Below, one piece after another: positions 29,461 through 36,999 of a DNA stretch of 39,768 nt; position 1 is the first letter of the stretch, and every line of letters begins with the position of its first letter. The DNA lies in assembly GCA_001512495.1 (NCBI GenBank), contig LFRU01000030.1, forward strand, positions 2,021 through 41,788, given 5' to 3'. The stretch is from Syntrophothermus sp. DTU052 (GTDB lineage: Bacteria > Bacillota > Syntrophomonadia > Syntrophomonadales > DTU052). The notes under the pieces are model-generated. The model did no database searches. It was not told where the DNA came from and saw nothing but the letters and a program-made list of their open reading frames with translations. The position numbers were made by a program, and so were the translations under genes.

Positions 29461-30516
29461 TTATCTTACATAGGGAGTGACAACCCATTTAAGGCAGTTG
29501 TCCTTCTTATTGCCGAATACATCATAACCCTTAACGATGTCATTCAATGGAGCCCGATGGGTGATCAGCGGATCGGTATTGATCTTTCCAGCCTGAATCA
29601 GGTTAATCAGTTCCGGAATTCGGTTGGCGTTAACCAGACCCATGCTGATCCTTATGTTTTTAATCCACAGGGTGTTCATAGGCAATACCTGCGGCTGCTC
29701 GAACACCCCAATTATAGAAACATTACCACCTGGTCTGACCGCTTCCAGGGCCAATTCGTATGTTCCCTTCACGCCTACGGCTTCAATACAGCGGTCAGCA
29801 CCACGGCCACCGGTCAGGTCCCGGATAGCTTCAGGGACATCAACCTTGGTTGGATTTAATGCCATATCGGCATAACCGTTCTTTAACGCAAAGTCCAACC
29901 GTTCCTGTAGCATATCAACGGCGATGATGCGAGCCGGCCCCCATAGCCTGGCAGCAGCCATAGCGCACATCCCTACCGGACCAGAGCCCATAACTGCTAT
30001 GGTATCACCGGGCTCAATGCATGCCTGTTCGGAACCGAAGTAACCGGTAGATAAGATATCTCCAACAAACAGCACATTTTCCTCGGTCAAGCCCTCGGGA
30101 ATGCTAAACATGCCCAGGTTAGCATGAGGTACCCGGACATACTCAGCTTGGCAGCCGTCAATCATGTAACCAAATATCCAGCTTCCGGTCGTGCAGTGAG
30201 AATAAATTCCCCGCACGCAGTAAAAGCATTCACCACATTGGGTTACACAGGAAACTGCCACCTTGTCTCCCACTTTTGCGTTTCTTACAGCGGGCCCTAC
30301 TTCAACGACCTCGCCACAGAACTCATGACCGAGAATTCGGGGAGCTTCTACCTCGGGCATTCCGCCATGCCATATGTGAATATCCGTTCCGCATATGGTG
30401 GAGGTAGTAACTCTAACAATCGCGTCGTCGGGCTCAATGATTTTGGGAATAGGAACATCCTCCAGACCGATCTTTTCTGGTCCACGGTACACCAATGCTT
30501 TCATCGTATCTGCCAC
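29461..30516 (-). CDS. Zinc-dependent alcohol dehydrogenase
   Basis: A 351-aa medium-chain dehydrogenase. Catalytic zinc ligands are C42 (TICGTDIH) and H64/E65 (GHEFCGEVVEVG), with D153 in FVGDILSTGYFG. The aspartate at this place is seen in clostridial secondary alcohol dehydrogenases. Four structural-zinc cysteines (C94, C97, C100, C108 in CGECFYC...HC) are kept, and the NAD(P) motif is GSGPVG. The substrate is uncertain; 4-hydroxybutyrate or secondary alcohols are only possibilities. The GTG start is eight bases after AGGAGG. Its leader carries a repeat element overlapping a terminator (30604-30700). Confidence 0.9.
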   Translation of the reverse strand: MADTMKALVYRGPEKIGLEDVPIPKIIEPDDAIVRVTTSTICGTDIHIWHGGMPEVEAPRILGHEFCGEVVEVGPAVRNAKVGDKVAVSCVTQCGECFYCVRGIYSHCTTGSWIFGYMIDGCQAEYVRVPHANLGMFSIPEGLTEENVLFVGDILSTGYFGSEQACIEPGDTIAVMGSGPVGMCAMAAARLWGPARIIAVDMLQERLDFALKNGYADMALNPTKVDVPEAIRDLTGGRGADRCIEAVGVKGTYELALEAVRPGGNVSIIGVFEQPQVLPMNTLWIKNIRISMGLVNANRIPELINLIQAGKINTDPLITHRAPLNDIVKGYDVFGNKKDNCLKWVVTPYVR

Positions 30517-30603: not shown

Positions 30604-30657
30604 AACAAAAAAGCCAATGTTCTTACAAGCACTAAGGGTCATTCGTAAGAACACTGG
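30604..30657 (-). terminator. Terminator in the alcohol dehydrogenase leader / after the DUF2294 gene
   Basis: Minus-strand CCAGTGTTCTTAC pairs with GTAAGAACATTGG across an 18-base loop and is followed by CTTTTTTGTTTT. The first arm shares bases with the 3' end of the repeat element at 30654-30700, so the two structures compete. Confidence 0.85.
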
Positions 30658-30700
30658 TCTTTCTTGAAGCCACCGCTCAGGTTTCTTCTCAATCCACCAG
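30654..30700 (-). promoter_or_regulatory. Leader element copy B (candidate riboswitch/attenuator)
   Basis: 47 nt in the minus-strand RNA, closed by CTGGT/ACCAG. Inside are two imperfect repeats, GGTGGATTGAGAAGAAACC and GGTGGCTTCAAGAAAGACC, separated by TGAGC. The closing 3' strand ACCAG is also the start of the terminator's first arm. It lies about 140 bases before the alcohol dehydrogenase start. Ligand or protein partner unknown. Confidence 0.55.
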
Positions 30701-30726
30701 GGTTGTATGAAATTGCAATTGGATCA

Positions 30727-31143
30727 CTACTCCGTCAGTTTGCGGTCAAAGATAACAACGTGCATCCAGAAATCGTTCTCCGGTTCCACGTCATAGACTT
30801 GATGGATGGCCTTGGCCTGTAATACCTCCTCAAAATAGGGGACATTATCTATCGAATGCTGTTTGGCAACCTGCATCCGTGCTGCCCGGACGACATCCTT
30901 TCCTGCAGGGGTTTCAACTATGTATCGTTCCGGGTCGGTAAGGAATCTCTCCCCCCGGATTACGAGCATATCATCCCAAATTACCACCTTGGTGTGATCG
31001 ACACCTTTCCCCAATTTCGCTTTAAAGTACTGTTCCATATAAATCTTGAGTTCATGCTGCAGCTGTCTGCGTTCCTGTTCACTGAGCTTTTTCCTGTCAA
31101 TAGCACTTCTAATGGTGTTGGCTTTTTCCATACTGACGGCCAC
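30727..31143 (-). CDS. DUF2294 (MpsC-like) protein
   Basis: A 138-aa protein. An N-terminal helical part (SEQERRQLQHELKIYMEQYF) leads into the DUF2294 core: LGKGVDHTKVVIWDDMLVIR, FLTDPERYI and a conserved MHVVIFDRKL end. This Pfam family has been tied to the MpsC component of a Na+-translocating membrane-potential system in Staphylococcus; no MpsA/MpsB gene is nearby, so the role here is open. Soluble, with no signal peptide. The GTG start has AAAGGAG about ten bases upstream. A good promoter and a leader repeat element lie upstream. Confidence 0.8.
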   Translation of the reverse strand: MAVSMEKANTIRSAIDRKKLSEQERRQLQHELKIYMEQYFKAKLGKGVDHTKVVIWDDMLVIRGERFLTDPERYIVETPAGKDVVRAARMQVAKQHSIDNVPYFEEVLQAKAIHQVYDVEPENDFWMHVVIFDRKLTE

Positions 31144-31185
31144 CGCATTTCACTCCTTTCCCACAAACAATAAAAACTAATATTT

Positions 31186-31211
31186 TGTAATCAGATAATA
31201 CCCTGACTACA
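31186..31211 (-). other. Hairpin following leader element A
   Basis: 9-bp stem (TGTAGTCAG/CTGATTACA, one G-U pair) starting six bases after element A. A T5 tract follows about nine bases later, so it is at best a weak terminator. Confidence 0.4.
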
Positions 31212-31216
31212 GGAAA

Positions 31217-31262
31217 CATTGGTTCTTCGGAGCCACCCCTGCGGGGTTTCTTCTTATCCACC
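31217..31262 (-). promoter_or_regulatory. Leader element copy A upstream of the DUF2294 gene
   Basis: 46 nt on the minus strand with repeats GGTGGATAAGAAGAAACC and GGTGGCTCCGAAGAACC flanking CCGCAGG, so the middle can fold as ACCCC-GCA-GGGGT. It is closely similar to copy B 560 bases away. It sits in the 5' leader, roughly 20 bases after the predicted transcription start and about 75 bases before the GTG start. Confidence 0.55.
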
Positions 31263-31285
31263 TTAATATCTGCGTTATGCCTAAA

Positions 31286-31314
31286 ATTATATCAGAGCGT
31301 TCTTGCCCTTGCAA
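31286..31314 (-). promoter_or_regulatory. Sigma-A promoter for the DUF2294 gene
   Basis: Minus strand TTGCAA, 17-base spacer, TATAAT. Transcription should begin near 31279, giving a leader of about 135 nt that contains element A. Confidence 0.75.
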
Positions 31315-33082: not shown

Positions 33083-33289
33083 ATGACTGTTTCCAGCCAG
33101 ATAAAAGAGGCCCTATCGAACTTAAAGAGCGCCCAGGCCAGCCTGGAGTCGTTTGCCCTGCAAACTCAAAACCAGCAGGCCAAACAGCTCTTTACCAGCG
33201 CTGCTCAGCAGGCCAAGAGCATCATCAATACCCTGGAACCTAGAATCCAGGAGATCGAGAGCCAAGAACCCCAATACAAGGGATTTTAA
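33083..33289 (+). CDS. DUF1657 protein, copy 1
   Basis: A 68-aa all-helical soluble protein (TVSSQIKEALSNLKSAQASL) ending QEPQYKGF. DUF1657 proteins are found almost only in spore formers, next to spoVA and DUF421 genes. It is paralogous to the 68-aa protein 280 bases downstream, which ends in the same motif. The ATG has AAAGGAGG eight bases upstream. Function unknown; forespore expression inferred from the neighbours. Confidence 0.88.
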   Translation: MTVSSQIKEALSNLKSAQASLESFALQTQNQQAKQLFTSAAQQAKSIINTLEPRIQEIESQEPQYKGF

Positions 33290-33501
33290 GCACGTCCCTC
33301 CGCGGCATTCCGTATTGCGCTCATGTTGGTGCCATGGGGGGGACTGGCTTTCCATATCCCCGCCGTTCGTCCCCCGGCCCCTTCTAAACGACCCGCTCCC
33401 GGGGTCCCGTCATCCCGGGTGCCGTTAGGCATGCCTCCCTGATAGCCTCTCTTTCTGAAAGGAGTAAGGACTAATCCTTGATTCTCCCGCAAAATTTGCA
33501 G

Positions 33502-33531
33502 GAATATTACCGGGCTCTGATAAGCACAATA
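33502..33531 (+). promoter_or_regulatory. Sigma-G-like promoter of the spoVA-type operon
   Basis: GAATA, exactly 18 bases, CACAATA, fitting GNATR-N18-CATNNTA except for one base. It is 34 bases before the second DUF1657 start. Confidence 0.6.
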
Positions 33532-33565
33532 GTTTAGAGAGAAATCACCTGGCAGGGTGAAAGCA

Positions 33566-33772
33566 ATGACCGTAGCCTCGCAGGTTAAACAGACGGTTGC
33601 CGGCCTTAAGGGAGCACGGGCAAACCTGGAAAACATGGCTTCTATTGAGAAAACTCCAGCCACCCAGGACCTTCTCCGCTCCAACGCCGAAAAATTGAAC
33701 CTCATCATCAACCGGATGGAGCAGCGCGTTGGTGAGCTGGAGCGGCAGGAGCCTCAGTACAAGGGCCTCTAA
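33566..33772 (+). CDS. DUF1657 protein, copy 2
   Basis: A 68-aa helical protein (TVASQVKQTVAGLKGARANL) ending QEPQYKGL, with the same length and C-terminal motif as copy 1. I use the ATG at 33566, preceded by AGGGTGA; a GTG at 33557 would add three residues. First gene of the continuous run to 36999, with the DUF421 gene starting 20 bases later. Confidence 0.85.
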   Translation: MTVASQVKQTVAGLKGARANLENMASIEKTPATQDLLRSNAEKLNLIINRMEQRVGELERQEPQYKGL

Positions 33773-33792
33773 GCTTAAAAGGTGATGCATCT

Positions 33793-34653
33793 ATGCCGGA
33801 ATGGTTGATGATAACGGCTCGGGTAGCCGGGGTTTTTGCCCTGGTGCTGTTATTAACCCGTCTCCTGGGCAAACGACCCGTTGCCCGTCTTACCCTTTTT
33901 GATCTTACGACGGTTATTGTAATCGGCTTTATTGCCGGAGCGCTGTCACTTGACCTTATACCGAATCCGGTCAATGGTCTGATCTCCCTGGGAATCTGGA
34001 TCCTTTTTCCGGCTCTAATCTATGCACTGTCCCTGAAGTTTAAAGCAGTTCGGGACCTGTACCAGGGAAAGGAAACCGTAATAGTCAATCACGGCCGGGT
34101 TTTGGATGATAAACTGCTTGCAGCCGGACTAACTCCCGAGGACTTCCTGGGACTACTCCGCCGGAAAAACGTGTTCAACTTCGCCGATGTAGAGTTTGCC
34201 GTACTCGAACCGACCGGTGAGCTTAACGTTTTGCCCAAGAAAGAACAGCAGAGCCTAACCCCAAAAAACATGGGGATCAAGGTTGCTGAGGAGAGCGTGC
34301 CGCAAACAGTGATCCTGGACGGCAACATAATGGACGAAGCTCTCACTGCTATGGGCGTTAACCGCAACTGGTTGTTGACCGAGATCGATAAGGCGGGAGT
34401 ATCGGTAGAAAACATCTTTATCGCCCAGGTTGATTCAACCGGACAGCTTTACCTGGACCTTTTCGATGACTCGTTGTCAACCCCGCAGCCTACAATCAGG
34501 GAGATGACTCTGGCCACCCTTAAGAAATGTCAGGCCGACTGCGAACTGTTTGCCCTAGGAACCAGGGAACCGGAGGCTAAAACCATGTACCGGGAAACAG
34601 CTACGGGTCTGAATGATATCATTGGAGAGCTGGAGCCGCTGCTGGGAAGGTAA
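33793..34653 (+). CDS. DUF421 (YetF-like) membrane protein with DUF1657-like C-terminus
   Basis: A 286-aa protein. Three N-terminal membrane spans (ITARVAGVFALVLLLTRLLG; FDLTTVIVIGFIAGALSL; LISLGIWILFPALIYALSL) precede the cytoplasmic DUF421 domain: VIVNHGRVLDDKLLAAGLTP, LLRRKNVFNFADVEFAVLEP and GELNVLPK. The last ~55 residues (IREMTLATLKKCQADCELFA...ETATGLNDIIGELEPLLG) look like a fused DUF1657 unit, similar in pattern to both small neighbours. This composition matches YetF-type proteins described in spoVA2-like clusters. It is expected in the spore inner membrane. Confidence 0.88.
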   Translation: MPEWLMITARVAGVFALVLLLTRLLGKRPVARLTLFDLTTVIVIGFIAGALSLDLIPNPVNGLISLGIWILFPALIYALSLKFKAVRDLYQGKETVIVNHGRVLDDKLLAAGLTPEDFLGLLRRKNVFNFADVEFAVLEPTGELNVLPKKEQQSLTPKNMGIKVAEESVPQTVILDGNIMDEALTAMGVNRNWLLTEIDKAGVSVENIFIAQVDSTGQLYLDLFDDSLSTPQPTIREMTLATLKKCQADCELFALGTREPEAKTMYRETATGLNDIIGELEPLLGR

Positions 34654-34690
34654 GCGATCTACAGCAGGAACAGTAAAGGAGGCCTCAAGA

Positions 34691-35170
34691 GTGTCGGAAA
34701 AAGCCAAGAAACAGCTGTCTCCTACACAGAAGGAATACCAGGATTTTGCCCGGGCCCGGGAACCCAAACGCTCGGTATTTTTCAACTGTATTAAAGCTTT
34801 TTTCGTCGGTGGAGGCATATGCCTCCTGGGGCAGTTCGTTCAGGACTTTTTTATCTGGAATTTTGATTTTACAGAAAAGACAGCGGGCAATCCCACAGTG
34901 GCGATAATGATCCTCCTGTCCGTTATCCTGACCAGCATCGGCGTCTATGATCATATCGGGCAGTGGGCCGGTGCGGGAACTGCAGTTCCGGTAACCGGTT
35001 TTGCCAACTCCATTGCATCGGCGGCTATAGAACACCGCACCGAGGGGTATGTTCTGGGGGTGGGGAGCAATATGTTTAAGCTGGCGGGTTCGGTTATAGT
35101 TTTCGGGGTTTTTGCCGCGTTTGCCGTGGCCCTGATCAAGACTACTCTTTCCATGCTAGGAGGGGGTTAG
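34691..35170 (+). CDS. spoVAC: Stage V sporulation protein AC
   Basis: A 159-aa membrane component of the spore dipicolinic-acid channel. The GTG at 34691 is eight bases after AAAGGAGG; an upstream ATG at 34613 inside the DUF421 gene is discarded. SpoVAC features are the front SPTQKEYQDFARAREPKRSV and membrane spans around KAFFVGGGICLLGQFVQDFF, IMILLSVILTSIGVYD and the GAGTAVPVTGFANSIASAAI motif. Work on Bacillus shows SpoVAC acts as a mechanosensitive channel. One base separates it from spoVAD. Confidence 0.95.
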   Translation: MSEKAKKQLSPTQKEYQDFARAREPKRSVFFNCIKAFFVGGGICLLGQFVQDFFIWNFDFTEKTAGNPTVAIMILLSVILTSIGVYDHIGQWAGAGTAVPVTGFANSIASAAIEHRTEGYVLGVGSNMFKLAGSVIVFGVFAAFAVALIKTTLSMLGGG

Positions 35171-35171
35171 G

Positions 35172-36179
35172 TTGCTGCGGGGATACCAGACCTGGGTCTT
35201 TACAAATCGCCCGGTAATTGCGTCCACCGGGACTGTGGCCGGGCCTTTTGAGGCCCAGGGACCTCTGGCGCGGGACTTTGACCTCCTGCATGGAGACCTG
35301 TGGCTGGGCCAGGACAGTTATGAAAAGGCAGAGAGAAAAATGCTGGAGGAGGCGTGTGAGCAGGTTATCTCCAAGGCGGGCATTCAGAAGGAGGATGTTC
35401 AGTTTTTTCTGTGCGGCGACCTTATCAACCAGATAACCCCCAGCAGCTTTGCCGCCCGTACTCTTGCGGTTCCTTTCCTGGGCGTTTTCGGGGCCTGTTC
35501 AACCAGCATGGAATCGCTCGCTCTGGGCTCCCTCATTGTTAACAGCGGCGGCGCCCAGCGGGTGATATGCGCTGCTGTTAGCCACAATGCCACCGTGGAA
35601 AAGCAGTTCCGTTACCCCACCGAATACGGGGGGCAAAAACCCCCCACGGCGCAATGGACCGTTACCGGTGCCGGCGCAGCTTTATTGTGCAACCAGGGTC
35701 ATGGACCCCGGACTACAGCCGCGACTATTGGCCGGGTTATAGACATGGGAATCTCCGACCCTTTTAACATGGGCAGCGCCATGGCACCAGCGGCAGTAGA
35801 CACCATAACCGCACATTTGCGGGATCTGAATATTGATGCCGATTACTATGACCTGATCGCTACCGGGGACCTGGGCAGAATCGGGCACGGAATTGCCAGG
35901 GACCTGCTTAAAAAACACGGGATAAGAATACCGGATGATCGTTTCACCGACTGCGGGATCCTGATTTACAGCGAGCAGCAGCCGGTAATGGCGGGAGGGA
36001 GCGGCTGCGGATGCTCAGCCATTGTGACCTACGGTCATCTCATTAACCGCATGAAGAAGGGCGCCCTCCAGCGGATACTGGTGGTCGCCACCGGTGCGCT
36101 GCTTTCTCCGCTGTCCTACCAGCAGAAGGATTCGATTCCGTGCATTGCTCATGCGGTAGCCATTGAAACCGACCATTAG
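35172..36179 (+). CDS. spoVAD: Stage V sporulation protein AD
   Basis: A 335-aa thiolase-fold protein that binds dipicolinic acid for import into the forespore. Recognisable blocks are VIASTGTVAGPFEAQGPLAR, FDLLHGDLWLGQDSYEKAE, FGACSTSMESLALGS, YPTEYGGQKPPTAQWTVTG and GGSGCGCSAIVTYG. The cysteine in GACSTS replaces the thiolase active site, but the protein is not thought to be an enzyme. The TTG start follows AGGAGGGGG at the end of spoVAC, giving tight coupling. Confidence 0.95.
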   Translation: MLRGYQTWVFTNRPVIASTGTVAGPFEAQGPLARDFDLLHGDLWLGQDSYEKAERKMLEEACEQVISKAGIQKEDVQFFLCGDLINQITPSSFAARTLAVPFLGVFGACSTSMESLALGSLIVNSGGAQRVICAAVSHNATVEKQFRYPTEYGGQKPPTAQWTVTGAGAALLCNQGHGPRTTAATIGRVIDMGISDPFNMGSAMAPAAVDTITAHLRDLNIDADYYDLIATGDLGRIGHGIARDLLKKHGIRIPDDRFTDCGILIYSEQQPVMAGGSGCGCSAIVTYGHLINRMKKGALQRILVVATGALLSPLSYQQKDSIPCIAHAVAIETDH

Positions 36180-36191
36180 GAGTGATGGTTT

Positions 36192-36545
36192 TTGGAGATA
36201 TATTTCTGGGCATTCGCGGTTGGCGGTTTGATCTGCGTCATTGGCCAGATATTGCTGGATGTAGCCCGGCTTACCCCGTCTCATGTAATGAGCATCCTGG
36301 TGGTTTCCGGAGCAGTCCTGGGAGGTCTGGGCCTATACCAACCGCTGATTGATTTTGCCGGTGCCGGGGCCACCGTTCCCATAACCAGTTTTGGCAACTC
36401 CCTTTTGGAAGGAGCACTGGTGGAAGCCGAACGCACCGGATTGGTTGGTATACTCACCGGGATATTCGAAGTAACCAGCGCCGGTATCTCCTCGGCCATC
36501 ATCTTTGGTTTTATAGCTTCCCTGCTGTTCAAATCGAAAGGTTAA
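36192..36545 (+). CDS. spoVAE: Stage V sporulation protein AE (SpoVAEb type)
   Basis: A 117-aa membrane protein with four hydrophobic segments: AFAVGGLICVIGQILLDVA, VMSILVVSGAVLGGLGLY, the GAGATVPITSFGNSLLEGAL region, and a last span near IIFGFIASLLF. It resembles SpoVAC in its GAGA-VP-T-F-N-L motif, as is usual for the SpoVAC/SpoVAE pair. The TTG start lies about ten bases after AGGAG. It is part of the membrane channel for dipicolinic acid. Confidence 0.94.
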   Translation: MEIYFWAFAVGGLICVIGQILLDVARLTPSHVMSILVVSGAVLGGLGLYQPLIDFAGAGATVPITSFGNSLLEGALVEAERTGLVGILTGIFEVTSAGISSAIIFGFIASLLFKSKG

Positions 36546-36555
36546 GAGGTTGCTC

Positions 36556-36999
36556 ATGAAGAAAATCAAGTTATTGATAGCATTAGTATCGATAATTATG
36601 GCGGCCAACGGTTGCGGACACTCGTCTCCCCCAATAAAGCCCCGCCCCGCGCATATGCCGCAGCCCGGTCAGCAGATAACTATTGATCTCCGGCGGGCCG
36701 AGGAGGTCAAAAACCTGATCAGAGAAGCCGGGGAGGTGGAAGATAGCAGCGCGGTAGTGGTGAATCAGGATATTGCCGCCGCCATTAAAGTCAGCGGCTT
36801 CAATCGGCTGCGGCTGGAATCGATCCGAAACCAAGCCAGAGAGAGGATTAAACAGGCCCACCCCGGATTCCATGTGTACCTCACCAGTGACAAAAAACTG
36901 TTTGCGCAGCTCCAGCAACTGGAGCAGGACATACGGGAATCAAACCTGTCACCACCGGAAGCCAGGGCCAAGGCAAACAAGGTTATCAGTGATATGTGA
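36556..36999 (+). CDS. YhcN/YlaJ-like sporulation lipoprotein
   Basis: A 147-aa protein with a basic start (KKIKLLIALVSIIM) and a cysteine after AANG that is a plausible lipoprotein site, although ANGC departs from the usual L-A/S-G/A-C. The mature part fits the YhcN/YlaJ spore lipoprotein family: RRAEEVKNLIREAGEVEDSS, AVVVNQDIAAAIKV and HPGFHVYLTSDKKLFAQLQQ. Such a gene accompanies spoVA2-type operons. The ATG is six bases after AAGAGG. Last gene of the operon; no clear terminator follows. Confidence 0.85.
   Translation: MKKIKLLIALVSIIMAANGCGHSSPPIKPRPAHMPQPGQQITIDLRRAEEVKNLIREAGEVEDSSAVVVNQDIAAAIKVSGFNRLRLESIRNQARERIKQAHPGFHVYLTSDKKLFAQLQQLEQDIRESNLSPPEARAKANKVISDM

Follow-up and report, generated by a model that had tools for sequence, protein, structure and literature searches.

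A covarying hairpin element flanking mpsC (DUF2294) and preceding dehydrogenase genes in syntrophic and related anaerobes: a possible new antitermination system

In the bgl operon of E. coli, sites for a BglG-type antiterminator flank the gene of the regulator itself. The locus described here resembles BglG, LicT and SacY antitermination in that a short hairpin with internal loops has a strand in common with an intrinsic terminator, and it resembles the BglG and LicT systems in that the elements flank the gene of a putative regulator, mpsC, and precede an enzyme gene at most loci (in family f30 the element lies only downstream of mpsC). It departs from them in that MpsC has neither a CAT nor a PRD domain, and in that the element RNA is longer than the RAT hairpin, to which its sequence likeness is superficial. 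The second group for comparison is that of the ON riboswitches, such as the tandem glycine, guanidine and Moco-type leaders, which share with the element a covarying hairpin, an exchange between terminator and antiterminator and tandem copies, whereas the element has no Rfam match, a variable internal loop and a constant tie to one protein subfamily. Syntrophomonas wolfei carries many Moco RNAs (PMC2408646); the element is not a Moco RNA. The encoded protein belongs by Pfam to the MpsC/DUF2294 family (PF10057), and its element-linked subfamily differs from the other members inspected in having a basic N-terminal helix and in sitting with the element.

The window, that is, the whole stretch of DNA analysed, comprises 39,768 nucleotides from Syntrophothermus sp. 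DTU052. According to direct reading and Pfam, its minus strand carries in order a promoter, element copy A, mpsC, element copy B and a zinc alcohol dehydrogenase gene. Each element copy is a hairpin with two helical parts, P1 and P2, which are described below. The features are the following.

31286..31314, minus strand: predicted sigma-70-like promoter, a consensus match with TTGCAA (31314-31309), 17 nt and TATAAT (31291-31286)
31217..31267, minus strand: element copy A in the mpsC leader, 5' strand 31262-31245 and 3' strand 31237-31221
31172..31223, minus strand: terminator of copy A, beginning at the P1 ACC and ending in UUAGUUUUU, with one stem mismatch
30727..31143, minus strand: mpsC (DUF2294, PF10057) of the element-linked subfamily, GTG start as listed, an ATG at 31131 also possible
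30652..30703, minus strand: element copy B between mpsC and adh, 5' strand 30698-30680 and 3' strand 30674-30656
30700-30696 and 30658-30654, minus strand: P1 of copy B, CUGGU and ACCAG, by direct reading
30607..30658, minus strand: terminator of copy B, whose 5' arm begins at the 3' strand of P1, z = -4.5
29461..30516, minus strand: adh, a zinc-dependent MDR alcohol dehydrogenase gene (Pfam ADH_N / ADH_zinc_N), the candidate controlled gene

Direct reading confirmed the TTGCAA-17-TATAAT promoter that an earlier note on this DNA had placed before copy A, and found no obvious promoter belonging to copy B. The mpsC product matches PF10057 with 90.3 bits, above the curated cut-off of 23 bits and as its sole Pfam match; it scores 246.8 bits against a profile of the element-linked MpsC subfamily, and its AF2 model has a pLDDT of 90.6. 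The best solved relative of the ADH is 5yln. Elsewhere in the window, on the plus strand at 33083-36999, a cluster of genes for DUF1657, YetF/DUF421-DUF1657, SpoVAC, SpoVAD, SpoVAE and YhcN/YlaJ proteins resembles spoVA operons that have been linked to the heat resistance of spores.

The earlier note had described a repeated unit occurring four times, in two pairs. Two copies do lie on the minus strand in the same orientation, 565 bases apart and before the DUF2294/MpsC and ADH genes, and the literal unit fits only their two 5' halves (31262-31245, and 30698-30680, which is 19 nt), the 3' halves being looser (GGTGGCTCCGAAGAACC at 31237-31221 in copy A, GGTGGCTTCAAGAAAGACC at 30674-30656 in copy B). 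Exact matches of the pattern GGTGGNT-N(0-8)-GAAGAAACC in the 2.28-Mb genome are copies A and B only, with 0 for the reversed-pattern control. As a bare string within the window, the loose repeat gives 2 matches with up to 3 mismatches against 0.59 expected, which is not beyond chance; the significance of the element lies in its turning up at the corresponding place in other genomes.

The element is one hairpin of about 50 nt that consists of P1, a large internal loop and P2. P1 is (CU)GGU/ACC(AG), the internal loop has GGAUU.. opposite ..AAGAA(G), and P2 is made of P2a (RAG/CUY), a step of AA facing GG, and P2b (ACC/GGU). The hairpin mimics a direct repeat, since GGUGG...AA..ACC can be read along both strands: the two 18-nt repeats per copy have no role of their own as repeats but form the opposite strands of a single pseudo-symmetric hairpin, and a duplicated leader of independent repeats was rejected on that ground.

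A MAFFT alignment made without structure guidance, folded with RNAalifold, recovered P1, P2a and P2b from 22 divergent copies. Among 63 distinct copies, 89.3% of the pair cells form and 8 of the 12 pairs show double changes; cells changed on both sides number 44, compared with 15.9 +/- 3.1 when shuffled and at most 27 when slid, a count that leans towards the model since the alignment was fitted to it. On trees, at least 22 compensatory switches from one Watson-Crick pair to another are counted, as a minimum, and the top three column pairs by corrected mutual information are all proposed base pairs, while pairs G6-C57, G7-C56 and C25-G39 are invariant. The bases of the internal loop differ between copies, some of them within one genome (GGUGGAUU, GGUAGUUU, GGUGGUCU, GGUGGCUG, GGGAGAUU). 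Judged from this sequence comparison, the element is a structured cis-regulatory RNA whose secondary structure is backed by compensatory changes across genomes.

The absence of a known riboswitch class, as put forward earlier, agrees with the search of the whole window against Rfam 15 at the gathering threshold, which gave 0 matches; a local Rfam search to E = 10 returned chance-level hits only, the best being DapZ with 19 bits against the 56 needed. Since the element is conserved in related genomes, its helices covary there and it has no Rfam family match, none of the outcomes that the earlier note had set against its own proposal occurred. A literature search, with most subscription journals outside its reach, found no pairing of DUF2294 with riboswitches and a single, unrelated paper that names DUF2294, and neither alcohol dehydrogenase nor DUF2294 appears in the main text of two large surveys of new bacterial RNAs.

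CTGGT (30700-30696) and ACCAG (30658-30654) are paired in copy B, where the same ACCAG is the opening of the terminator stem ACCAGTGTTCTTAC...GTAAGAACATTGGCTTTTTT, both as noted before. A terminator starting from the P1 ACC is present in copy A as well (31223-31172), weaker than that of copy B and absent from the earlier description. In both copies P1 and the terminator share a strand and are mutually exclusive. Of 95 distinct copies, 89 have a helix of 8 bp or more that starts at the P1 ACC and abuts a U-tract; among shuffled controls in which the U-tracts were kept, 7% do. When copy B is folded at increasing length, the hairpin forms first, in transcripts of 56-80 nt (-16 to -17.5 kcal/mol), and at lengths of about 95 nt and more the terminator wins (-36.1 kcal/mol versus -27.0 with P1 forced); the terminator and P1 folds of copy A are nearly equal (-29.9 versus -29.3 kcal/mol). 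By its shared and exclusive strand, the element is a predicted ON-type transcription attenuator, that is, an antiterminator/terminator pair, as the layout proposed earlier had it. Its ON direction is inferred from structure: readthrough needs something holding P1, hence an ON switch. A strong terminator in nearly all copies would also suit plain insulation, in which the upstream hairpin aids termination or RNA stability and regulates nothing; this is very improbable, since the hairpin shows covariation and, in those 89 copies, lends its P1 strand to the terminator as the 5' arm, so that it opposes the terminator instead of helping it.

Seven of 63 genomes from the class of the window contain the complete double motif, against 0 for the reversed control. 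Elsewhere in the order, nearly all adh orthologues (about 70-90% identical) have a diverged element upstream, G021:C2 being an exception. Covariance model R1, built from 6 sequences, found the element in 27 of the class genomes at E <= 0.06, and a directed look added G018, which makes 28 element-positive genomes; model R2, for which 64 sequences were used, detected it in 18 of 399 genomes from a phylum-wide draw, adding five families to those of the window's order. In all, the covariance searches, whose E-values are rough and most of whose genomes are MAGs, gave about 100 copies, from Syntrophomonadia and, in a scattered way, from other Firmicutes, and a scan of named genomes placed the element in Syntrophomonas wolfei, Syntrophaceticus schinkii, Syntrophothermus and other Syntrophomonadaceae MAGs. 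Copy B scores 71.4 bits with R1 and 64.7 bits with R2; copy A scores 33.6 bits with R1, and 46.1 bits with R2 at the corresponding place in locus L109. A 3.3-kb contig labelled Deltaproteobacteria (L151) has the order element-mpsC-element-adh, with an ADH 86% identical to that of the window, and is probably misbinned.

At most loci the standard order is element, mpsC, one or more elements and a dehydrogenase gene. For 97 model matches, the nearest downstream gene within 600 nt was adh in 42, mpsC in 35 and a short-chain dehydrogenase (SDR) gene in 4, as counted with a simple ORF caller on the fetched loci, which also supplied all other gene calls outside the window; misses read by eye showed adh behind the element in L084 and L079 too. 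Three elements separate mpsC from adh in G013, while G011, G325 and G410 have two, and these four genomes together with G058 have tandem series of two or three before an adh or SDR gene. In family f30, whose operon layout is common to Syntrophaceticus, mpsC belongs to another operon and has no upstream element, and it still directly precedes the element and adh. Papers on T. phaeum and S. schinkii contained no usable expression data for this adh.

Other gene settings were also seen. A promoter-bearing element precedes a gene for an ABM-family monooxygenase, away from mpsC, in L143, L144 and L106. A pair of genes for a HigB-like toxin and an HTH (HigA-like) antitoxin has an additional, divergent element before it in S. 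wolfei subsp. methylbutyratica (L075 2682-3604, L161 681-1603); in two other Syntrophomonas genomes this same element is followed by no clear gene. In one lineage (L131 30-2997), mpsC comes after genes for a PaaK-like CoA ligase (a fragment as called), a protein with a pair of ACT domains and a 373-aa protein with no Pfam match.

The most constant neighbour of the element is MpsC. Of the 28 element-positive genomes of the class, 26 also have MpsC, G001 and G059 being the exceptions. The MpsC/DUF2294 family is present in 117 of the 399 genomes drawn across the phylum, and the profile of the element-linked subfamily finds 19 of these 399, all 19 with the element: 17 were already element-positive, and G165 and G136 were added on inspection, the copies of G165 scoring only 19 and 16 bits and yet having the hairpin and the terminator. 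In five further loci from the family of G432, chosen by MpsC alone, the element lies between mpsC and adh (5/5). The enzyme, by comparison, changes while MpsC is kept, with an SDR in place of the ADH in G011, G019, G033 and G035 and an ADH of 26% identity in G136. Much of the co-occurrence of element and MpsC is explained by co-inheritance, because the two are physically linked. The N-terminal helix of the subfamily, QHELKIYMEQYFKxKLGKG, has a mean net charge of +5.1 against +0.6 in MpsC proteins without elements (11 comparison proteins, motif-anchored stretch). A fold search with the MpsC model turned up no similar solved structure, whether RNA-binding or not (best E 0.08), and a profile search of the PDB found no relative (E 0.4 or worse). 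A coevolution between an R-to-Q change in MpsC and a GGGAG element in G019, G021 and G033 was dropped, since G136 has GGGAG and keeps the R.

It is because MpsC is the constant partner that we tilt to protein control, and we would give even odds to MpsC binding the element and thereby averting termination ahead of both its own gene and the dehydrogenase gene. A new riboswitch class, in which a small molecule (perhaps an alcohol, aldehyde or cofactor that the dehydrogenases use) would prevent termination and mpsC would merely be co-regulated, is a tentative but serious alternative. It stays close mainly because of G059, whose assembly is 98% complete and has a near-perfect element (62.6 bits) with its terminator before adh, and no detectable MpsC. 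Riboswitches typically show such a fold, an ON-type platform and tandem copies, and the controlled genes (zinc ADH, SDR and ABM-family monooxygenase) share a theme. The riboswitch would, however, leave unexplained why the element goes with every examined member of the MpsC subfamily while the enzyme changes, and the variation of internal-loop bases, some of it within one genome, would be unusual for a pocket with one ligand. Binding by some other trans-acting factor, either a different RNA-binding protein or a small RNA, with MpsC as a co-regulated effector, draws on the same structural evidence and fits both G059 and the ABM-gene copies away from mpsC; we consider it improbable, as no candidate was found and the sole constant neighbour is MpsC.

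The losses in related genomes bear on the same partnership. The congeners G001 and G002 have lost mpsC-adh by different deletions, and each retains a short C-terminal mpsC remnant and broken elements between TPM and VWA genes (L093 3100-3330 and L198, respectively). The element before the VWA gene of G001 was considered as a new target and rejected as a decaying relic with the mpsC remnant upstream. In G004, adh is kept, mpsC is absent, and the element has lost its 5' half with the terminator intact. The decay in these three genomes argues that the element is maintained mainly together with mpsC and adh.

Regarding the signal, the sodium or ion ligand guessed at earlier is unsupported. The "Na+" label of MpsC stems from an operon of S. 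aureus, in which deletion of mpsC, there encoding a distant MpsC, gives no growth phenotype and the gene is dispensable for MpsAB bicarbonate uptake (PMC6689103). Several of the mpsC genes without an element (L168-L197) adjoin genes for biotin carboxylase, PurK, PEP carboxylase or the SbtA bicarbonate transporter, and this neighbourhood, in a small sample of loci, suggests a CO2- or bicarbonate-related signal as a possibility for MpsC.

Under control by MpsC, the hairpin of about 50 nt formed by P1 and P2 would fold first as RNA polymerase leaves the element. With P1 unheld, the downstream terminator stem would capture the P1 3' strand (ACC-R-R-U) and transcription would stop; with a factor holding the hairpin, the terminator would be blocked and the next gene transcribed. 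The likeliest factor would be the protein of the MpsC (DUF2294) subfamily whose gene lies between copies A and B; at copy A it would sustain its own transcription and at copy B it would admit RNA polymerase into the dehydrogenase gene, and its binding may be triggered by substrate, redox state or CO2/bicarbonate. The full reading, that the MpsC subfamily is a new RNA-binding antitermination regulator acting on an undescribed hairpin that flanks its own gene and controlling dehydrogenases in syntrophic and related anaerobes, has in our estimate a probability of roughly 0.48.

If either MpsC control or the riboswitch were true, the element would represent a previously undescribed class of regulatory RNA, found in bacteria that power methane-forming food chains, namely Syntrophomonas, Syntrophaceticus and their relatives, whose gene regulation is little understood. 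If MpsC is the binder, this would be the first testable function for the MpsC/DUF2294 family, and another route, from unrelated parts, to a BglG-like switch.
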